NCBI RefSeq assembly: GCF_021249345.1
Contig: NZ_CP089588.1
Coordinates: 1,488,001 to 1,552,000, forward strand
Reading direction: 5' to 3'
Origin: Halobacterium wangiae
Lineage (GTDB): Archaea; Halobacteriota; Halobacteria; Halobacteriales; Halobacteriaceae
DNA length: 64,000 bases
Each line of letters starts with the position of its first letter. The first letter of the stretch is position 1. The notes beneath the pieces are model-generated. The model ran no database searches. It was not told where the DNA came from and saw nothing but the letters and a program-made list of their open reading frames with translations. Shown piece after piece: positions 25,655 to 57,231 of the stretch. Made by a program: the position numbers and the translations under genes.

Positions 25655-25739
25655 TCTGCAGCTTGGGTCAGGGAGTGTTGGAGGATCACTGATTGTTCGA
25701 CAGGGCTATTCTTCTGGGATAGCTGGTTCGCAGAGTTGC
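25655..25739 (+). repeat. R85 repeat, copy D
   Basis: This is an 85-base copy of the R85 family: a left end TCTGCAGCTTGG, the core GATTGTTCGACAGGGCTA and a right end GCAGAGTTGC. It lies just downstream of the G+T-rich patch and next to the 3' end of the membrane-protein gene at 25744-26400. Confidence 0.65.
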
Positions 25740-29504: not shown

Positions 29505-29588
29505 TCTGCACTACGCAACAATAAGTATCGTAGACCTGGGTTATTCGATAGGGATAGTTTCGAGAACTAGCCGGTAAGCAGGAGTGTG
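29505..29588 (+). repeat. R85 repeat, copy C
   Basis: This copy is diverged but complete: TCTGCACTACGCAAC on the left, GGTTATTCGATAGGG in the core and GCCGGTAAGCAGGAGTGTG on the right. It lies in the intergenic region between the small membrane protein and the histidine kinase hybrid. Confidence 0.6.
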
Positions 29589-31977: not shown

Positions 31978-32060
31978 TCTGTACTTCTCACTGCGCCACA
32001 CCTAGGAACAACGAGTGCCGGAGAAGACCGGATTATTCGACAGGGCTAGTTTCGAGAACT
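31978..32060 (+). repeat. R85 repeat, copy B (partial right end)
   Basis: The left end TCTGTACTTCTCACTGCGCC is followed by a longer middle and the shared core GATTATTCGACAGGGCTAG TTTCGAGAACT. The right end then diverges. It begins 37 bases after the DUF7522-like stop codon. Confidence 0.55.
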
Positions 32061-32377
32061 GTGACACGGCCGCTTCGCTTTACCTCCTCGTATCATCAGC
32101 AACGGGTGAATCTCTGATTTCACGCAGTCTCGGTCCGGCGTTTTCCCACGGGTAGCTACCGTCTCCGGAATGCGTGTCTCTTGCCACCGATTTCGGCCGC
32201 TTCCCCCCGTAAACGACAATTCGTTCGTGGGTCGAACGAACGTCCTTCACGCCCGCACCCCATTTCCCGGTCAGAACCGCCCGAAGGCGGTGGGGTGATA
32301 GGACGATGAACGCACTGTTCGTACTTTCGTTCGATTGTCCTGATTATTAGGAACCCTACAGGGATCCACGTGCGTCC
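32061..32377. other. Gene-poor stretch with nested hairpin
   Basis: No gene. At 32256-32297 a nested stem pairs CACCCC with GGGGTG and, inside, ACCGCC with GGCGGT around the loop CGAA. The layout recalls IS200/IS605-type ends and repeats the element at 26512-26572. Confidence 0.45.
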
Positions 32378-45138: not shown

Positions 45139-45528
45139 CTAGGCGCGTTCTTCGACGACGATATCACGGGCTTCCGAGACAAGGCCATCGTCGTCATCCA
45201 GTGCTTCGACGTCAAGCGCAACAGCAGCACCAATTCCGTCCTCGAGTGCGAAGTTCATCTCCACGACGTTCTCGAAGCAATTGACTATGCACTCAAGCTC
45301 ACCGTGGCCCTCAGAGTACGCTCGTTCGTAGAGCGAAGTAGACAATGACTGCATACGGGACTCATCGATTGCATCCAGGAGCTCCGCCTCGGAGTACTGC
45401 TCAGCGACATCATTCCGGAGGTAGACGATGTCCATGCCCTCGTGGTCGTACTTGACGATACTCCTGAGGGCACCACTGGTCTGTTCCTCGAAGAACTCCT
45501 CGAGGCGAGACGCCATCTGGACTGCCAT
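45139..45528 (-). CDS. DUF7522-like protein
   Basis: This 129-residue protein has SRLEEFFEEQTSGALRSIVK, then DHEGMDIVYLRNDVAEQYSE and GELECIVNCFENVVEMNFAL. It matches the protein at 31561-31941 in layout and key positions, so the window carries two members of this family. The family role is unknown. The gene converges on the cluster of small regulators upstream. Confidence 0.7.
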   Translation of the reverse strand: MAVQMASRLEEFFEEQTSGALRSIVKYDHEGMDIVYLRNDVAEQYSEAELLDAIDESRMQSLSTSLYERAYSEGHGELECIVNCFENVVEMNFALEDGIGAAVALDVEALDDDDGLVSEARDIVVEERA

Positions 45529-49231: not shown

Positions 49232-50431
49232 TCAGTTGCCGCCGGCTGTCGTTTCTCTCGCTCGTTCACGGCTCTCGTCACTCGTTACCAACCAGTAGAA
49301 GAACGGCTCGTGCGTCCCGGCGACGCTGGCGGTCACGAAGGTGTACTCCCCGCGTGTAGGGTCGTCGTGAAGCGTCACCGACTTCGAATTCTCGTCGACG
49401 CTCGCAGTCACGTAGACAGCATCCCCGGGTTCAAGTGGCGCGTCCGTCGTAACGGTCCCGAACTTGTCGCCGAAGCTGACATGGTCCAACGCATACTCGT
49501 TACTTGCGCTGACCCTGAACGACGCGTTCGCCGGGAGAGTGACCCCGCCAGTGTTCCTGATTTCGAACGCGTGGCCGTCCTCGACGATCGACAGCGAGAG
49601 CTGTGGGACGTCGCCGATCCACGACGGCGGGCCGGACCAGTCGATACCCGTTTCCAGTGTGATCGAGGAGTTGACGCGTCTGGTGGTGTCGTCGCGGTCC
49701 TGAACGAAGGACTTCTCGGTGTTGTAGACGACGCCGTCGGGCGTGACGAGCGCGGTTCCCTCGTAGGAGGTTAGGGACGTGCCCCAAGAGGTTGGCGAGG
49801 GCTCGTCGGCGGTGAGTTGAACGAACGTCCGACCGCCGCGCTCGACGGTGCCGTTGACGCTGTAGTTCCCACTTATGAAGGCGTTCTCGAGGGCGTGCTG
49901 TGGGCCGAACGTGTCGTCACGCGTCCAGGCTCTGGCGATGGCGGTGTCATTCTGCAGGACTTGGTACCCCGTTCTGTTGGGGATGGTCACCCGGGAGTAG
50001 CCGTGCGAGCCCGTCGAGTAGAACTGCTCCGCGGTTCGTATTCCGTCGGTCGTCCGGTTGAACGTGCTGTAGTACGGCGTTGGGCTCGCACCGCGCGCGT
50101 AGGTGCGGACGTAGGTATCGTTCGAAACCTCCCACTGTTGGGTGAACACCATCGGTTCGTTCGCCGTCGCCTCGAAGTGCGCGTCGGCGAGGGCCGAGGC
50201 GTTCGTGAGTGTACCGTTGTCTGCGACGCCCGGCGGGTACTGCTCGACGGAGGCATTCGGTGACCAGGTACTGGTCGGGGTGGTCGTGTCGCTCGTGGTC
50301 GTGTCGCTCGTGGTCGTGTCGCTCGTGGTGGTGTCGGTGCTGGTGGGGGGTGTCCCGGTGGTACAGCCGGCGGTGACGAGGAGGAGGGCGACGCAGACGG
50401 CGAGTGCCGCGCGTCGTGTCGGGGGCTTCAT
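49232..50431 (-). CDS. Lipoprotein of the DUF7537 type
   Basis: The ATG at 50431 gives 399 residues with a signal peptide and lipobox (MKPPTRRAALAVCVALLLVT, then AGC). A low-complexity Asp/Thr/Ser linker follows, coded by a 15-bp tandem repeat. The rest is a large surface domain (about 75-390), rich in N-glycosylation-type Asn sites and with 'QQWEVSNDTYVRTYARG' typical of DUF7537. Function unknown; location outside the membrane. Confidence 0.75.
   Translation of the reverse strand: MKPPTRRAALAVCVALLLVTAGCTTGTPPTSTDTTTSDTTTSDTTTSDTTTPTSTWSPNASVEQYPPGVADNGTLTNASALADAHFEATANEPMVFTQQWEVSNDTYVRTYARGASPTPYYSTFNRTTDGIRTAEQFYSTGSHGYSRVTIPNRTGYQVLQNDTAIARAWTRDDTFGPQHALENAFISGNYSVNGTVERGGRTFVQLTADEPSPTSWGTSLTSYEGTALVTPDGVVYNTEKSFVQDRDDTTRRVNSSITLETGIDWSGPPSWIGDVPQLSLSIVEDGHAFEIRNTGGVTLPANASFRVSASNEYALDHVSFGDKFGTVTTDAPLEPGDAVYVTASVDENSKSVTLHDDPTRGEYTFVTASVAGTHEPFFYWLVTSDESRERARETTAGGN
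50281..50340. repeat. 15-bp tandem repeat in the lipoprotein gene
   Basis: Three exact copies of TGGTCGTGTCGCTCG and a fourth degenerate copy (TGGTGGTGTCGGTGC). On the minus strand they encode the Asp-Thr-Thr-Thr-Ser linker after the lipobox. Being in frame, gain or loss of units only changes linker length. Confidence 0.75.
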
Positions 50432-50626: not shown

Positions 50627-50712
50627 TCTGTACTTAGCAATCTAGCGGAATGTCGGAGAATCACCGATTAGTCGACAGCGCCCTTTCCCGAAACGACCAG
50701 TAACAAAATTGC
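50627..50712 (+). repeat. R85 repeat, copy E (array start)
   Basis: 86 bases: left end TCTGTACTTAGCAATCTAGC, core TGTCGGAGAATCACCGAT and right end AGTAACAAAATTGC. It lies 4 bases from the stop of the minus-strand HalOD1 gene, so its relation to that gene differs from the plus-strand members. Confidence 0.75.
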
Positions 50713-50716
50713 ATAC

Positions 50717-50986
50717 CTAGCGGTGCGATTCGATTTTGATGATTGGGTTACCGTTTTTGTCAGCAATGATCGTCGCGGTCGTCGTATCCGCTTCAAACTG
50801 GAGGGTCATCTTGAGATTGTGGTCTTGGAAGAGGGCGTCGAGTGCGTCAGTGTTAATATCGTCACTGATGCGCCATTCCTGATCGATTATCTCCTCGTCG
50901 TGAGCCGCTGCAATCGCCGATACGACCGCTACGCTTAACGTGTCGCCCGCTTCTGGCTCGTAGTAGAATTCTTCAGTATGTCCCAC
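50717..50986 (-). CDS. HalOD1 protein, first gene of the R85 array
   Basis: This 89-residue protein has TLSVAVVSAIAAAHDEEIID and INTDALDALFQDHNLKMTLQ, then TATIIADKNGNPIIKIE, a HalOD1 output domain. It is on the minus strand, reading toward copy E. It is one of the two minus-strand genes in the array. HalOD1 proteins are thought to act as output partners in two-component signalling. Confidence 0.8.
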   Translation of the reverse strand: MGHTEEFYYEPEAGDTLSVAVVSAIAAAHDEEIIDQEWRISDDINTDALDALFQDHNLKMTLQFEADTTTATIIADKNGNPIIKIESHR

Positions 50987-51073
50987 ACCGCTATTTGGAG
51001 GGTCAACGGGAAACCCGCTATTGCCATTATAAGTCCCGGTAGTTGCCTCCCCCTCGCCAGGTCAAACTGATTC

Positions 51074-51157
51074 TCTGTACTTAGCGACAGTGAGTGTCAG
51101 AGAATCACCGATTATTCGACACGGCTAGTTCCCGAAATGACCGGTAAGCAGAGTTGC
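51074..51157 (+). repeat. R85 repeat, copy F
   Basis: 84 bases: TCTGTACTTAGCGACAGTG, core GATTATTCGACACGGCTAG, and AATGACCGGTAAGCAGAGTTG at the right end. It precedes the zinc-protein gene start by 64 bases. Confidence 0.8.
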
Positions 51158-51220
51158 GAAGAAACCGAGGCCTTGTCACAATCCGAATACATATATCTGG
51201 TGGCAATCTTTCCGGGTTTC

Positions 51221-51373
51221 ATGGGATGTGCTCAGTGTGGCAAAAGCGATGCCGCTCTAACGAAGGTTGAATACAAGGTTGAAGAGGGCGAAACAATTCC
51301 CTTGTGTGCCGATTGTCGGGACGAATTCAAAGATGGCGGGCTCGTTAAGGCGGTTTCTCTGGTTGACCAGTAG
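51221..51373 (+). CDS. Small zinc-ribbon protein in the R85 array
   Basis: The ATG at 51221 gives 50 residues: MGCAQCGKSDAALTKVEYKV, then PLCADCRDEFKDGGLV, two CxxC pairs that could hold one zinc. The TATA-like ACATATATC at about 51189-51197 is about 25-32 bases upstream and supports this start over the longer frame at 51137. Copy G begins four bases after the stop codon. Confidence 0.7.
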   Translation: MGCAQCGKSDAALTKVEYKVEEGETIPLCADCRDEFKDGGLVKAVSLVDQ

Positions 51374-51377
51374 GTCA

Positions 51378-51465
51378 TCTGTACTGAGCAATCCAGCGGG
51401 CTGTCGGAGAAGACCGGATTGTTCGACAGGGCAATTTCTATAAGTAGTCAGCAAGCAGAATTATG
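51378..51465 (+). repeat. R85 repeat, copy G
   Basis: 88 bases: TCTGTACTGAGCAATCCAGC, core GATTGTTCGACAGGGCAAT, right end AGCAAGCAGAATTATG. It begins 4 bases after the stop of the zinc-ribbon gene. Confidence 0.8.
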
Positions 51466-51617
51466 AACGGATTGCTGAAGTCCACAGTTCGTATCAGAGG
51501 GTACCCTCTCATGAGGACACTCTACTGGTTCATTTGTAAGAGGGGTCTTGGACTATTCGCTTAGAAGGGGGAATGACCGGATGATACAAAGGACCTGTCT
51601 GTGTTGGAGATATTATT

Positions 51618-52049
51618 ATGGACGTGGGTGAGACGGTAGAAGTTGAGATTGGTGAACGCCATGACGGTTATCTCAAGGCTGAGCGGGATGGAAGTCGGTT
51701 TAGCATAGCAGGCGAAGGCTCGATTGGAGATACGCGAAAAATTCGGATTGTGAAGAACCAAGGAGGCCCCTTCATCGCAGTCACTGAAGGTGCGACGCTC
51801 CGCCTCAGGATCGACGAAGTCGTCGATGAGTCGACTGTCAGGGCCGACCCCTCGTATGGTCCTGTATTAATCGAAGCTTCGCTGTCTCCGGGTGATTGGT
51901 GGCAATGTGTTGTAACTGGTGTTCAGGAAAGCCATGTCACTGCAAAACCTAGGAAGTACATCCCTCGAAATAGCGACATCCCACGAGGTGACCTGCCTGA
52001 TGATTCAACGCAATCTCTTAATCACTTACTTAGTGGGCGAAAGCTCTGA
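51618..52049 (+). CDS. TRAM-like small protein in the R85 array
   Basis: This 143-residue protein starts MDVGETVEVEIGERHDGYLK and continues with 'GDTRKIRIVKNQGGPFIAV', a β-barrel pattern like TRAM or an OB-like RNA-binding domain. The remainder is unassigned, with TAKPRKYIPRNSDIP near its end. It may bind RNA. It is preceded by about 150 bases after copy G and followed by copy H after 41 bases. Confidence 0.5.
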   Translation: MDVGETVEVEIGERHDGYLKAERDGSRFSIAGEGSIGDTRKIRIVKNQGGPFIAVTEGATLRLRIDEVVDESTVRADPSYGPVLIEASLSPGDWWQCVVTGVQESHVTAKPRKYIPRNSDIPRGDLPDDSTQSLNHLLSGRKL

Positions 52050-52090
52050 CGCAGTAATACGAATGCAGAGTTAATGGACGAGGATCATTC

Positions 52091-52177
52091 TCTGCAGCAA
52101 GCGATAGTCCCGGTCCGTGTCGCAGAATGGATTCTTCGACAGTGCTATCTCTCGAAATAGCCGGTAAACAGAATTGC
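52091..52177 (+). repeat. R85 repeat, copy H
   Basis: 87 bases: TCTGCAGCAAGCGATAGTCC, core GATTCTTCGACAGTGCTAT, right end GCCGGTAAACAGAATTGC. It lies 41 bases after the TRAM-like gene stop. Confidence 0.75.
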
Positions 52178-52274
52178 GGATTCACCGGCAACTGTCCGTG
52201 GCAGTCATTGGTGAGGAAGTGACTATGTTCATATCGGGGGAAGATACAACTGGGCGGGTCGGGTTGTGTTGTCC

Positions 52275-52841
52275 ATGCGTCGTCGAGCCCTCCTCACCAG
52301 TCTCGTTGGCAGTACTGCACTCCTCGCCGGATGCATCGCTGATGCGCCGACAGGTAACTCCGAAGATACGCCCTCAACGGACTCCAGTACTGCGTCTCCA
52401 AGGGAGGTGTTTAATCCGACTGGGCGGGCGACGATTCGCCCACTTGACGAGCCGCTCATCCAGCACGGGCTAACCGCGGACTCCGAGCAGTATCTATACG
52501 GTCGATTGTTCTCTCCCGATGATACCGTCCCCGTCACTGATAGCGCGGATGCAAAATGGCTCGCTGAACGGGTTGACGAACTGTCCAGCGATCAGTTCGC
52601 GGTTTTGACGAACCTTCGGACTGCAGGCGCTTCCCCCGCTCATTTCTGGCCAACGCCAACTGGTGCCACGTGGGACGACGAAGGCCTTCACATCCAACTG
52701 GAACGCCAAACAATTTCAACCACCGTCGAAAGTGACGAGGCCGTCGGCGTTGCACTCACCGTCTACCAGTATACTGGCAAGCAACCGACGGATGTGAGGC
52801 TCGTCTTCCCGAGTGGAGCAACTCTCCCAATCGGGACGTGA
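52275..52841 (+). CDS. Exported lipoprotein in the R85 array
   Basis: The ATG at 52275 gives 188 residues, starting MRRRALLTSLVGSTALLAGC, a signal with lipobox. A Ser/Thr/Asp linker follows, then a globular domain with 'PLDEPLIQHGLTADSEQYLY' and 'TTVESDEAVGVALTVYQYTG'. It would be anchored outside the cell membrane. I do not recognise the family. Copy I starts 19 bases after the stop. Confidence 0.7.
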   Translation: MRRRALLTSLVGSTALLAGCIADAPTGNSEDTPSTDSSTASPREVFNPTGRATIRPLDEPLIQHGLTADSEQYLYGRLFSPDDTVPVTDSADAKWLAERVDELSSDQFAVLTNLRTAGASPAHFWPTPTGATWDDEGLHIQLERQTISTTVESDEAVGVALTVYQYTGKQPTDVRLVFPSGATLPIGT

Positions 52842-52860
52842 GACTTCGAGAACTGTACGC

Positions 52861-52953
52861 TCTGTACTGAGCGAAAGGTCCCTGTATCTATGTCGGAGAA
52901 TCACCGATTATTCGACACGTCTAGTTCCCGAAATGGCCGTTAAGAAGAGTTGC
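52861..52953 (+). repeat. R85 repeat, copy I
   Basis: 93 bases: TCTGTACTGAGCGAAAGGTC, core GATTATTCGACACGTCTAG, right end GGCCGTTAAGAAGAGTTGC. It lies 19 bases after the lipoprotein stop. Confidence 0.8.
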
Positions 52954-53149
52954 GTATCTCCCAGGGAACAGGGCGCGATTGTGCAGTGGGAGCAATAGAT
53001 ACCGGTATAGATCGAATCTGAGCGAGTCTCGTGTATAAACGACTGACGGTTCGGTGTTTGGACTTGGGTATCGAGTTAGGGTTGCAGGAGGTGTGATTCC
53101 AAGGGTGCGAGTCAGCGGAACTAAATATCCTTCAGACGGGAGTATAGAC

Positions 53150-53596
53150 GTGAAGCGGCGTAATCTCCTCGCCCTCCTTGGGGCGAGTACAATCGCCGGT
53201 GGTTCCGCTGTATTGAGTGTCCTCGGAGATGACAAACACACGAAGCTCAACGACATTATGGTTCAGAACCGGGCTGACAAGCCCCAGCAAGTAGTCGTTC
53301 AGGTTTTCGGCGGTGACACGATTGTCACAGATGAGACGTTTTCACTCGCAAAAGACGATATGTCCGGGTCAAAAGCTATGGTGCCCTGTGAATGGCGAGA
53401 CGCATCAGGGCCTCTCTCCGTCCGTGTTCGACTTGTTGAATCATCTGACTGGGACACGCGGCATCTCGATGAGGCAACCGATTCGTCTGCGGTAGTGGAA
53501 TATATTGTGGTGATCGGGGGGGAGGAAACGCCGTCCGGGATCGACTTCTATATCTCACAGAACTCAGAATACTCCCCGTGTTCTGATATAAAATGA
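53150..53596 (+). CDS. Tat-type exported protein in the R85 array
   Basis: The GTG at 53150 gives 148 residues, with a short twin-arginine-like signal (MKRRNLLALLGASTIAGG) and no lipobox Cys. The domain after it includes 'DIMVQNRADKPQQVVVQVFG', 'ETFSLAKDDMSGSK' and 'EETPSGIDFYISQ'. An AT-rich ACTAAATATCC about 25-30 bases upstream supports this start over the ORF beginning at 53054. It appears to be exported and soluble or surface-bound; function unknown. Confidence 0.6.
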   Translation: MKRRNLLALLGASTIAGGSAVLSVLGDDKHTKLNDIMVQNRADKPQQVVVQVFGGDTIVTDETFSLAKDDMSGSKAMVPCEWRDASGPLSVRVRLVESSDWDTRHLDEATDSSAVVEYIVVIGGEETPSGIDFYISQNSEYSPCSDIK

Positions 53597-53737
53597 CACC
53601 AGCTGCGACGAACTCACGATAGACGTGAACCGCCTCGGGATCAAGCCTCGAGGCACTCGGCCTGTTCCGCCTGTAGATATGCTTATTTATAGAAGTGTTT
53701 ATTCACAAGAGTTTATTTGTGGATTGTAGGCTCTCCA

Positions 53738-53902
53738 ATGCCTCTCATCAACAGCGATAAAACTCGGAGAGATGCATACCTCGCCGTCGCATTCTTCTGT
53801 ATAATCTCGGTGATTGCCCTCCCGATTGGCGCGTTCTTAGCCTATCGAGCGTGGAAGATTCATCGGAAGATCTCCAACCCTCAGGACACCTTATCAGGGT
53901 AA
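53738..53902 (+). CDS. Small membrane peptide in the R85 array
   Basis: The ATG at 53738 gives 54 residues: MPLINSDKTRRDAYLAVAFF, then CIISVIALPIGAFLAYRAW, one or two TM segments and a basic tail. An in-frame TTG at 53717 is less likely. AT-rich TATA-like sequence lies upstream (about 53680-53715). It shares one interval with the exported-protein gene at 53150, since no R85 copy separates them. Confidence 0.55.
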   Translation: MPLINSDKTRRDAYLAVAFFCIISVIALPIGAFLAYRAWKIHRKISNPQDTLSG

Positions 53903-54009
53903 TCGGGTGACTGTTCACTCGGTTGGACGGGGCCGTTGAACTCCTGATCTACTATCCGAAATCGATGATTTCAGAGTCGGACGGAAGAATCAACTACACC
54001 ATTGTACGA

Positions 54010-54127
54010 CTGTACTTCGCAATCCAGCGGGCTGTCGGAGAACACTGGAATCGACGACAACCGCCGTCGTACTTTCGCTGATTGTTCGACAGGCCCATTC
54101 CCTGAAATGGCCGGTAAACAGAATTGC
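54010..54127 (+). repeat. R85 repeat, copy J (with 33-bp insert)
   Basis: 118 bases: left end CTGTACTTCGCAATCC, core CTGTCGGAGAACACTGGAAT, then an insert TCGACGACAACCGCCGTCGT and the usual right end GCCGGTAAACAGAATTGC. The insert can form its own stem (ACGAC with GTCGT). Confidence 0.8.
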
Positions 54128-54186
54128 CTATTGATTGTTTTTTGGCTCGCGAAAAGCATTATACTTGGAAGAACAACACGGTTGAT

Positions 54187-54399
54187 ATGGTCATCTCAAC
54201 GAAGTCGGTATGGGACGAAGTGGCGGACGAGCTTTCGGACGGCTCGGTAATTGAGTACGAAAACGCGACGGTTTACGGCGATTTTGAACAGGAACAGGTT
54301 CTTCACCAAGGCAACGTCCGTATTCTCCCGAATAGTTGGATTGCTTTACCAACCGGTCGTCTCCTTTCTCCCGAAGCAGTACATCATATTGACCCATAG
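54187..54399 (+). CDS. Small protein of unknown function in the R85 array
   Basis: The ATG at 54187 gives 70 residues: MVISTKSVWDEVADELSDGS, then EQEQVLHQGNVRILPNSWIA and LSPEAVHHIDP. The TATA-like GCATTATACTT (about 54155-54165) is about 25-30 bases upstream. Copy J ends 59 bases before the start and copy K begins 4 bases after the stop. I do not recognise the family. Confidence 0.6.
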   Translation: MVISTKSVWDEVADELSDGSVIEYENATVYGDFEQEQVLHQGNVRILPNSWIALPTGRLLSPEAVHHIDP

Positions 54400-54403
54400 A
54401 ACC

Positions 54404-54528
54404 TCTGTACTGAGCGAACGGTCCCTGTATCTATGTCGTAGAAGAGGGGAATCGACGACAACCGCCGTCGTACTTTCACTGATTATTCGACATAGCTAGT
54501 TCCCAAAATGGCAGTTAAGCAGAATTGT
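54404..54528 (+). repeat. R85 repeat, copy K (with 33-bp insert)
   Basis: 125 bases: TCTGTACTGAGCGAACGGTC, then the same GGAATCGACGACAACCGCC insert as copy J, core GATTATTCGACATAGCTAG, and right end AGTTAAGCAGAATTGTG. It begins 4 bases after the stop of the gene at 54187-54399. Confidence 0.8.
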
Positions 54529-54546
54529 GTATTTACAGTCGGTAGA

Positions 54547-55023
54547 TTAGGGGATATTGATGGGTTCTCCCGCGTCGTTGAGGTTGACCCAGATGTCTCC
54601 AGTGTGTTTCACGACGACCTCGAACTGGGACTTCGTCTCGTCTTGGCTTGTCAGGGAGTTGAACGAGACGACTTCATGGTTTGCGTGTTGTTTTGAAGCG
54701 GCGGTCAGACTGTAGATGCCGGCTCCTGTTTCGAGGGATTGCCCAACAGTAATGGGTTTGCCATCGGCCGGTGCCTCGAACGTACTCCAGATGGGGCGTT
54801 CAGTATGTCCCTCCGGAGGACCATACACCAGCGTCAACCGGACGCGTTCCTTCTCGCCGGTGTCGCTTCGAACGAGAATTTGCTCGATGGGCGACTCAAC
54901 GGCTTCCGGGGACGTGGATTCGTCACTGGGAGAGGTGGTAGAACAGCCAGCAAGCCCACTGAAGGTTACTGCACTCCCAGCGAGGAAGGCTCTCCGAGAA
55001 ATGACCGAGGACCAATCGACCAT
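54547..55023 (-). CDS. Exported lipoprotein in the R85 array
   Basis: The ATG at 55023 gives 158 residues with SVISRRAFLAGSAVTFSGLA, then GC, a twin-arginine signal with lipobox. The mature part has 'RVRLTLVYGPPEGHTERPI', 'VGQSLETGAGIYSLTAASKQ' and 'SQFEVVVKHTGDIWVNLNDA', a β-rich domain. It is on the minus strand, reading toward copy K. Exported function is unknown. Confidence 0.7.
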   Translation of the reverse strand: MVDWSSVISRRAFLAGSAVTFSGLAGCSTTSPSDESTSPEAVESPIEQILVRSDTGEKERVRLTLVYGPPEGHTERPIWSTFEAPADGKPITVGQSLETGAGIYSLTAASKQHANHEVVSFNSLTSQDETKSQFEVVVKHTGDIWVNLNDAGEPINIP

Positions 55024-55055
55024 AGCATTCCTCTCGGTCTAAGGGGGAAATATCT

Positions 55056-55107
55056 TCTGTACTTAGCAATCCAGCGGGCTGTCGGAGAATACTGGGATCT
55101 CCGACAG
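55056..55107 (+). repeat. R85 repeat, copy L (truncated)
   Basis: The left half is TCTGTACTTAGCAATCCAGC. It then forms a perfect 9-bp stem, CTGTCGGAG with CTCCGACAG, and the family right end is missing. It is the last copy before the recombinase fragment. Confidence 0.7.
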
Positions 55108-55195: not shown

Positions 55196-55366
55196 ATGCA
55201 GATGAGGGATTACGACGACCAAGACGGTCGCAAAATCTGGCTGAACAAAGAAGAAGCAATGGAGTTCCTGAACACGGTCGCGGACACCGAGAAGTGTATC
55301 GCATTCACCCTAGAGGTGCGCTGTGGGATGCGCTGCAAAGAGATCGTGGATTACGCCGAGTTCGGT
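55196..55366 (+). pseudogene. Truncated tyrosine recombinase (integrase)
   Basis: The frame from the ATG at 55196 reads MQMRDYDDQDGRKIWLNKEE, then AMEFLNTVADTEKCIAFTLE and VRCGMRCKEIVDYAE. This is the start of a phage-type integrase, with the first Arg-containing box 'VRCGMR..EI'. The similarity stops at about 55366, where the minus-strand histidine kinase gene ends at 55369. The catalytic His/Arg/Tyr parts are absent, so the gene was cut off. It lies at the end of the R85 array. Confidence 0.65.
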
Positions 55367-55368
55367 TC

Positions 55369-57231
55369 TCAGTCCTGCCCTTGTTCGTCTCCGCCAGCAT
55401 CAGGCAACGTGAACGAAAACGTCGTCCCCTCGCCTGGTTCGGATTCGACCCAGATATCGCCGCCGTGGCGCTCGATGATGCGTTCACAGAGTGCCAGACC
55501 GAGTCCTGTCCCAGGGTGTTCGTCGCGACTGTGTAGGCGCTGGAACACCTCGAAGACGCGTTCCTGGTTCTTCGTGTCAATGCCGATTCCTTCGTCACTG
55601 ATCGAGATGGCCCACTCGTCGCCGTCGCGTTCTGCCGCCACGTGAATTCGCGGTGGGGCATCACCGCTGTACTCGATGGCGTTGTCCAGGAGGTTCTGGA
55701 ACACTTGGCGCAACTGGCTGGCGTCCCCTGCCACCGTGGGGAGGTCTTCGATGGTGATGTCGGCGTCGCGTTCCTCGATTTTCACCCCGAGGTCCTCGCA
55801 GATGTCGGCGACGATGGTGTCTAGGTCGACGGGTTCGAACGGGTTGCCCTGGGTCTCGACTCGCGAGTACGCCAGGAGCCCCTGTATCATGTCCCGCATC
55901 CGCTCGGCGCCGTCGACCGCGAACTCGACGAACTCCTGACCGTCCCCTTCGAGATCCTCGGTGTAGCGGTCCTCCAGCAACTGGAGGTAGCTGGAGATCA
56001 TCCGGAGCGGTTCCTGAAGGTCGTGGGATGCCGCGTACGCGAACTGCTCGAGGCGCTCGTTCGACTCCTCGAGTCTGCGCTGGTACTCCTTCTGGTCCGT
56101 GATGTCCTGCACCACTACCATCCCCGCGTATATCTCGCCGGCAGCGTTCCGTACTGGGAGCGTGTGCGCCAGCAGGTCCCGGTCTGGCAGGTCGACCTCG
56201 AACGTACTCGACTCACCCTCGAAGACCGCGTGGAAGTTCGGCTCGATGTCCGTGACGAGGTCGTCGGGATACCGGGCGTAGATGTTGGTGCCGACGACAT
56301 CCGCTGAATCAATCCCGAGGTCCTCTAGGAGTTCGCCACCGACGATATCGTAGGTGAGGTTCTCGTTGAACAGCCCGACGGAGCCGCCAGGGAAGTTGTC
56401 GACGAGCGTCCGGTAGCGGCGTTCGCTCTCCTTGAGTTCGCGTTCGCGATTTCTCTGCTCGGTGACGTCCTGTGACACCCCGAGGGCAACGAACACGTGA
56501 CCGTCATCGTCAAAGACCGGAACAATCCGGATTCTGTAAATACGGTCGTTGGACTCCACTTGGAACGTGCTCGACTCCCCATCGAAGGCGGCCTCGTAGC
56601 GGGGGACGAGTTCGTCGGCCAATTCTCGAGGGACGGCTTCGCTAACCTGTTTCCCCTCGATATCCTCTGCGGGGGCGCCGGCCTCTTCGAGGGGTTCGCC
56701 GCCGACGGTCTGGTAGGTAAGGTCCTCGTCGACGAGAGCCACGGCCCCGTTGGGGAAGTTGTCGACGAGCGTCCGGTAGCGGCGTTCGCTCTCCTCGACT
56801 TCGCGCTCGCGCTTCCTGCGCTCAGTGACTTCCTTGAACGTGAAGATAGCGCGTTCCAGCTCGCCGTCCTCGTTCCACTGGGGAGCACCGTTGACTGACA
56901 CCCAGACGCGTTCTCCGGACGGGCGGTGGAGGCCGATAATCTGGTCGTGTATCTCCGTTTCCTCCGCTACAATGCGGTCGAACGGTGCCTCGCCCGCTTC
57001 GAGGGGCTGGCCGTGTTCGCCGACGAGCCCCCACCGCGAGTCGTCGTGCGTGAACTCGTTTATTTCCTCGCGAGAGCGGCCGTAGATCTCCTCCGCACGT
57101 TCGTTCGCGAACGCCAGCGTGCCGTCGCCGTCGACGACCGTGATACCGACCGGGCTCGTCTGGACGATTCCCTCGACGACATCCCGGTTCCCTAGGAAAT
57201 CCTCCTCAGTTGTGCCCCCGGGATCTCTCAT
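55369..57231 (-). CDS. PAS-PAS-PAS histidine kinase
   Basis: The ATG at 57231 gives 620 residues with three PAS domains (about 15-130, 145-260 and 270-385). HisKA follows, with AASHDLQEPLRMI containing His403, then an HATPase with NLLDNAIEYSG, DEGIGIDTKN and GTGLGLALCERII. There is no TM segment, so it senses a cytoplasmic signal (redox, small molecule or light). The kinase core is very similar to the kinase at 57950-59962. An upstream GTG at 57252 is possible. Confidence 0.88.
   Translation of the reverse strand: MRDPGGTTEEDFLGNRDVVEGIVQTSPVGITVVDGDGTLAFANERAEEIYGRSREEINEFTHDDSRWGLVGEHGQPLEAGEAPFDRIVAEETEIHDQIIGLHRPSGERVWVSVNGAPQWNEDGELERAIFTFKEVTERRKREREVEESERRYRTLVDNFPNGAVALVDEDLTYQTVGGEPLEEAGAPAEDIEGKQVSEAVPRELADELVPRYEAAFDGESSTFQVESNDRIYRIRIVPVFDDDGHVFVALGVSQDVTEQRNRERELKESERRYRTLVDNFPGGSVGLFNENLTYDIVGGELLEDLGIDSADVVGTNIYARYPDDLVTDIEPNFHAVFEGESSTFEVDLPDRDLLAHTLPVRNAAGEIYAGMVVVQDITDQKEYQRRLEESNERLEQFAYAASHDLQEPLRMISSYLQLLEDRYTEDLEGDGQEFVEFAVDGAERMRDMIQGLLAYSRVETQGNPFEPVDLDTIVADICEDLGVKIEERDADITIEDLPTVAGDASQLRQVFQNLLDNAIEYSGDAPPRIHVAAERDGDEWAISISDEGIGIDTKNQERVFEVFQRLHSRDEHPGTGLGLALCERIIERHGGDIWVESEPGEGTTFSFTLPDAGGDEQGQD

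Follow-up and report, generated by a model that had tools for sequence, protein, structure and literature searches.

Integrons are a textbook example of how bacteria gain genes rapidly, and integron recombination takes place at the outer R box of the attC site. Haloarchaeal miniature inverted-repeat transposable elements (MITEs) and palindrome-associated elements are short hairpin repeats without genes. Archaeal integrons have been described from 75 metagenome-assembled genomes of nine phyla; according to the main text of that paper they have an IntI with its own extra domain, classical attC and genes generally in one orientation, and neither "halobact" nor "haloarch" occurs in that text (Ghaly et al. 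2022, PMC9668308). The HSTV2-like tyrosine recombinase family is restricted to Halobacteria (PMC8371274, in the main text of which the word "cassette" does not occur). Searches of an open-access library listed no precedent for a haloarchaeal cassette system. The present analysis concerns a stretch of 64,000 nucleotides from Halobacterium wangiae (NZ_CP089588.1, positions 1,488,001 to 1,552,000; "the window"), in which hairpin repeats alternate with small genes at 50627-55107. With a probability of roughly 0.87, this is the cassette array of an integron-like haloarchaeal system, judging from the anatomy and orientation of its sites, their position relative to an integrase, the gene content, and cassettes common to several genomes.

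Sites of the window array and the small integrases

The array comprises seven complete repeat copies (E-K) and one right-end copy (L), all in a single orientation and alternating with genes (Table 1). The initial annotation had counted eight copies of one repeat. This holds for the seven complete copies, but L is better read as an attI-like site, a different kind from the attC-like copies. Nested inverted pairs are present in the attC-like sites, an outer pair and an inner core. The core spacer is 4, 7 or 39 nt long, and sites J and K carry a near-identical additional 32 nt within the core (39 nt versus 7). Both ends had been said to be kept in every complete copy; the left end of site H (TCTGCAGCAAGC) and the right end of site G (AGAATTAT) have in fact diverged. 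Distances of 4, 41, 19 and 4 nt between stop codons and the following copies were reproduced, while the one given as 107 measured 106 nt. Covariation of the RNA structure was uninformative on the seven window copies and modest on 24 copies, in an alignment that had been fitted to the structure. An Rfam scan of the sites returned nothing at the gathering score.

The array ends at a truncated tyrosine recombinase, as already annotated: the gene beside L breaks off after about 55 codons and is a relative of the small integrase family described below. Its membership in the integrase family of the platform, and the attI-like nature of L, had been missed. L-type cores also lie upstream of intact integrases in other genomes. 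The H. wangiae genome possesses three such 5' recombinase fragments, two of them in a further array (L034), with a clear core before the first and a decayed core before the second. Since the E-K array ends at an attI-like site beside a truncated integrase, it is probably frozen unless an integrase is supplied in trans.

A covariance model trained on copies E-K was run on the 3.11-Mb single-contig H. wangiae genome, where 150 of 237 candidates were scored. It returned 18 matches at E<=0.012 (the seven training copies and 11 others in several clusters) and 20, L included, at E<=1. The covariance-model search of haloarchaeal genomes that the initial annotation had suggested was carried out on 391 genomes from 86 genera under stricter filters, and the window repeat was found in five, H. 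wangiae included, all of them Halobacterium. A second model was trained on 24 copies, several of which came from these five genomes. It matched 6 of 13 Halobacterium genomes (E<=0.05) and 6 of 26 genomes of the family (E<=0.01), counts that are not independent of the training set. An exact site pattern had no match in fetched loci. A contig scan with exact patterns confirmed one locus from 25 pattern matches, probably because the patterns were exact.

The integrase family is widespread: at its threshold of E<=1e-35 it occurs in 107 of the 391 genomes and 41 of the 86 genera. From the aligned start codon, the proteins measure 193-226 aa. Halobacterium sp. TGN-42-S1 (G022) and genome G245 have intact relatives of 193-194 aa, in both cases with a core ahead of the start codon; no att-like family was seen around these two genes among the 20 largest repeat families listed. 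PF00589 was the sole Pfam match above the cut-off (one member scanned). In an alignment of 11 proteins Met1, Arg46, Lys73, His139, Arg142, Trp165 and Tyr175 are invariant, and the last six are presumably the catalytic residues. The AlphaFold model is poor (mean pLDDT 56.7). The IntI profile TIGR02249 gave 16.7-37.2 bits against a cut-off of 265 in all four integrases scanned; judged by sequence, the recombinase is not IntI. Longer tyrosine recombinases near two arrays of the same genome (L034 7529-8653, L041 3207-4259) were set aside as the engine because there are hints of an N-terminal SAM-like domain in them and no att site is tied to them.

Regions around 80 further integrases (part of those listed) were fetched, and 82 loci, among them at least two duplicate pairs, were parsed from 83 regions. 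The attI of these loci lies some 110 bp ahead of the start codon and consists of a 7-8 nt spacer flanked by inverted arms of 10 bp. A core resembling TGTCCGAGAA-n7/8-GAGTCGGACA, 70-150 bp from the start and scoring at least 15, is present in 79 of 82 loci, compared with 5.6 in shuffles, 7 of 82 in control windows 550-630 bp upstream and 5 of 82 downstream. At a score of 18 the count is 56 of 82 (shuffles 0.2; upstream control 3, downstream control 0). The best cores lie 109-115 bp from the ATG in 72 of the 82 loci. The bases to the left of the attI core and the spacer sequences vary among loci.

Array searches were restricted to the surroundings of these loci, with each locus's own arms as query and 16 or more of 20 positions required to match. 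Over 386 kb, 32 of 79 loci proved to have same-strand cores in the 5 kb upstream of attI, 46 in all, versus 1.8 by mononucleotide shuffles; with duplicates removed, 44 cores in 30 loci remain. There were 13 upstream cores on the opposite strand, nine of which coincide with same-strand ones because the core is palindromic. Downstream (236 kb) one core was found on each strand, and matched 1.4-kb windows contain 28 cores upstream and 1 downstream. Loci with an intact integrase, attI and array occur in haloarchaeal genera other than Halobacterium, and a plasmid of Natrinema sp. SYSU A 869 carries an array (L211). In two loci (L155 and L163) tandem arrays with sites in one orientation accompany an intact integrase; L163 contains five consecutive intervals with one main open reading frame (ORF) each, one of them encoding a CBS-domain protein.

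One attC (L153) has a perfect 13-bp outer pair, CTGTACTTACCGC / GCGGTAAGTACAG, which resembles the TCTGTACTTAGC / GGTAAGCAGA of the window. At a threshold of at least 10 of 13 matches, 7 of 44 attC have the left outer motif (0.17 expected) and 5 of 44 have the right one (0.23 expected), counts that each include one match by construction, as the motif was taken from a tested site. Wrong-side controls gave 0/44 and 1/44, and the right outer motif was found on the right side of attI in 0 of 79 loci.

The small integrase also occurs on plasmids and on contigs classed as viral. Two IMG/VR contigs classed as viral (L208, L209) bear it with an upstream core; a third (L210) is partial and weak. An 18-kb plasmid of Haloarcula marina (L212) and loci L146/L185 have the integrase and one upstream core, and also encode a second site-specific integrase. 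In Halorubrum lacusprofundi pHLAC01 (L214) an MvaI/BcnI-type restriction enzyme and a DNA methyltransferase are encoded upstream of a more distant integrase relative. Near several platforms there are attI-like segments of a second subfamily (core TGTCCGCGAA..TTCGAGGACA; relative to attI, about -4466 in L163, -1749 in L166, about -1750 in L170 and -3526 in L160); no second integrase gene for them was found in the fetched regions.

Shared cassettes and alternative explanations

The initial annotation had offered a gene-cassette system and a MITE family as readings. In a cassette system, as it put it, one repeat would join different genes at conserved borders. Gene-plus-site units do recur elsewhere in the H. 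wangiae genome and in other genomes, with borders at the site, and these borders fall within the inner core. A response-regulator cassette is shared between L034 and another Halobacterium genome (G003, locus L036) at 83% identity over 582 bp. The match runs from the middle of one inner palindrome to the middle of the next, that is, between core centres at both ends, and 5 of 7 bases of the left spacer recur after the cassette on its right. Another unit, 749 bp long and 96.4% identical, is third from attI in genome G117 (L155, with cores at -1706 and -975 as its borders) and occupies first place in G290 (L166, between the core at -732 and attI). Both of its flanks are unrelated between the two loci, its right junction falls directly after TGTCCGAGAA, and its left spacer, TTGCGGTA, is identical in both. 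Two loci of genome G280 have a common unit (92.75% over 400 bp) with its right end after the left arm and a decayed left end. The HalOD1 cassette of the window has a relative in L034, 79.6% identical to window 50685-51060, where the match extends from the right half of the site to short of the next site. HalOD1 genes are also found in L086 and L088 without a detected site; the L086 match begins at the right end of site E.

Three candidate pairs were rejected. High-scoring segment pairs (HSPs) of L153/L170 and L163/L166, which resembled shared cassettes, start at attI-like segments of another integrase subfamily, and the breakpoints of L168/L172, considered as a cassette indel, lie away from the cores. 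The tRNA-Pro (TGG) locus is occupied by about 26 kb of extra DNA in H. wangiae (1122.7-1149.0 kb; L092, L041); in G003 it holds about 2 kb with a cassette array (L036), and its flanks match the H. wangiae genome.

Several observations weigh against a cassette system. Clean two-ended junctions of exchanged cassettes are limited to two pairs, and a further pair (L132/L174) is clear at the right junction only. HSP ends near a core in at least one sequence number 5 of 103, about the 4 expected. In both sequences 3 of 103 are near a core (about 0.04 expected), but two of these three begin at an attI-like segment that belongs to another subfamily and not to a cassette. The repeats and the integrase do not coincide in Halobacterium: none of the 6 of 13 genomes with window-type repeats, H. 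wangiae included, has an integrase at E<=1e-35, and G022 and G245 (more distantly G126 and G353) have integrases without window-type repeats. At the threshold used, a second core went undetected in 47 of 79 integrase loci. The majority of the 44 attC have no recognisable outer arms at 10/13, and the outer-arm motif was picked from one of the sites tested. Recombination is inferred; neither it nor circles were observed.

The least improbable alternative is that larger integrative elements or viruses were inserted successively at the same att site and that the single genes are remnants of decay. The integrase and core on two contigs classed as viral and on plasmids would fit this, as would an array at the tRNA-Pro locus where H. 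wangiae has a 26-kb island. The content of the arrays does not. The 38 core-to-core intervals shorter than 2 kb have a median length of 717 bp and a median longest ORF of 164 aa. In 76% of them the longest complete ORF covers 60% or more of the interval; the same holds for 19% of random windows equal in length and drawn from the same 5 kb, and for 2% of shuffles. Such filling would be unexpected from random decay. An ORF of at least 70 aa, present in 33 of 38 intervals, is less telling (87% of intervals, 63% of random windows, 32% of shuffles). The 96% identical unit is moreover shared whole. Serial insertion of larger elements is improbable.

Less probable still is that a non-coding, MITE-like repeat was inserted many times between ordinary genes, preferring their 3' ends. 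The repeat is indeed short, hairpin-forming and multi-copy, and some copies are solitary. All eight copies nevertheless share one orientation, the shared DNA ends at cores and takes in the gene, and the cores are concentrated upstream of a dedicated integrase, with hardly any downstream. The window segment 49900-56000 was used as the query of a DNA search in 13 Halobacterium genomes (23 candidates scored per genome). In the 12 other than H. wangiae no orthologous gene order without the repeats was seen, the pattern by which the initial annotation would have recognised a MITE family; the comparison favours cassettes. No empty site was found, and two neighbouring cassette genes of the window array were found together in none of these 12 genomes. 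Least probable of all is that the sites function as expressed RNA elements or terminators and were copied together with genes, an explanation that the hairpin shape and the proximity to stop codons suggest but that is contradicted by the longest ORFs lying on both strands relative to the site (21 on one, 17 on the other), by the empty Rfam result and by the same core preceding the integrase gene at a near-constant distance.

In the integron-like platform that is preferred here, a small tyrosine recombinase adjoins its own attachment site, attI, and mobile, mostly single-gene cassettes each bear an attC-like site, which has this core and, in intact copies, an outer inverted pair as well. One cassette extends from core to next core, with the clearest junction directly after the left arm (TGTCCGAGAA). 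Cassettes most likely excise and insert via core-to-core recombination, with attI as the founder site. They would enter at attI or between cores, so that arrays would lengthen on the upstream side of attI, with all sites pointing one way and genes either way. Tyrosine recombinases that act on paired DNA do not usually tolerate spacers of differing sequence and length, and the presence of such spacers here would be compatible with a route through folded single strands or one independent of homology. Circular intermediates and the strand exchange chemistry are presumed parts of this scheme, and folded single-stranded sites may be used.

That the platform is an independently evolved, haloarchaea-wide integron, with a recombinase that lacks the usual DNA-clamping domain and tolerates spacers of differing sequence, is put forward with much less confidence, as a slightly favoured proposition. 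If true, recombination would not depend on homologous spacers and might use folded single strands, and genes taken up both ways round would have to bring their own promoters. A second platform with a different recombinase could explain part of haloarchaeal gene exchange and supply a reservoir of unknown single-gene functions. It would also let one ask which integron features are required and which are historical accidents.

Genes and coordinates of the window

The cassette genes are small and mostly single. Genes of both strands are included, as had been annotated. Of the gene labels given earlier, HalOD1 is above the Pfam cut-off, but the matches behind the TRAM-like and zinc-ribbon-like labels are below it. 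The K-L gene has 75% identical DNA at 2097802-2098281 of the H. wangiae genome. Between the two I-J genes (window 53623-53684) there is a short dispersed repeat, perhaps the end of an insertion element or MITE, which is matched at 79-95% in 10 of the 12 other Halobacterium genomes. To the left of the array, a lipoprotein-like gene contains an in-frame 15-bp tandem repeat (50280-50339). The gene at 45139-45528 has a 79% identical relative beside array L041, and so it may be another mobile gene.

Table 1. Sites, recombinase fragment and cassette genes in the window (window coordinates; E-values from the model trained on copies E-K)
Feature	Position	Strand	Remarks
attC-like site E	50627..50712	+	core 50651-50677
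attC-like site F	51074..51157	+	core 51095-51121
attC-like site G	51378..51464	+	core 51402-51428
attC-like site H	52091..52177	+	core 52118-52141, 4-nt spacer, left arm diverged
attC-like site I	52861..52953	+	core 52891-52917
attC-like site J	54009..54127	+	core 54033-54091, 39-nt spacer
attC-like site K	54404..54528	+	core 54434-54492, 39-nt spacer
Site L, attI-like core 55080-55106 fused to the left arm of cassette K-L	55056..55107	+	no right outer arm
Small tyrosine recombinase gene, 5' fragment	55196..55369	+	61% identity to intact 194-aa integrase of Halobacterium sp. TGN-42-S1
Outlying attC-like copy	25655..25739	+	E=1.2e-7
Outlying attC-like copy	29505..29587	+	E=6.3e-8
Outlying attC-like copy	31995..32078	+	E=7.4e-4
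Cassette E-F, HalOD1 domain protein, 89 aa	50717..50986	-	Pfam PF18545, 37.9 bits, cut-off 26.3
Cassette F-G, 50-aa CxxC protein	51221..51373	+	weak DUF7685, below cut-off
Cassette G-H, TRAM-like, 143 aa	51618..52049	+	below Pfam cut-off
Cassette H-I, lipoprotein-like, 188 aa	52275..52841	+	lipobox judged by eye
Cassette I-J gene 1, exported protein, at most 180 aa	53054..53596	+	start uncertain; no Pfam match
Cassette I-J gene 2, 54-aa membrane peptide	53738..53902	+	
Cassette J-K, unknown, 70 aa	54187..54399	+	
Cassette K-L, lipoprotein-like, 158 aa	54547..55023	-	

Comparison with known systems

Haloarchaeal MITEs are likewise short hairpin repeats, but the mobile unit here takes in a gene. 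Archaeal recombinase families with a lone Phage_integrase domain, such as the HSTV2-like family, have the same single PF00589 domain as the small integrase (main text of PMC8371274). XerA of archaea is the best NCBIfam profile for all four scanned integrases, aligned from positions 86-95 to 247 of 263; the scores of 28.9-45.1 bits are far below the cut-off of 220, and the haloarchaeal integrase is without the N-terminal part. The archaeal integrons of Ghaly et al. 2022 are also cassette arrays in archaea but, by the main text of PMC9668308, rely on IntI and classical attC.

With bacterial integrons the platform shares an integrase gene with an adjacent primary site, arrays of mostly single-gene cassettes with one site each and all sites in one orientation, sites with two nested inverted pairs where intact, and the existence of arrays without an intact integrase. 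It differs in an integrase that has no N-terminal domain and scores far below the TIGR02249 cut-off, in cassette genes that occur in both orientations (21 versus 17), and in a crossover that apparently takes place in the inner core, not at the outer R box. Because the integrase falls short of the IntI profile and gene orientation differs, the system is not classed as a member of the integrons, though it is integron-like in its working. It appears to be an integron-like platform built on a different recombinase, in which single genes are mobile as in bacteria but by means of other parts.

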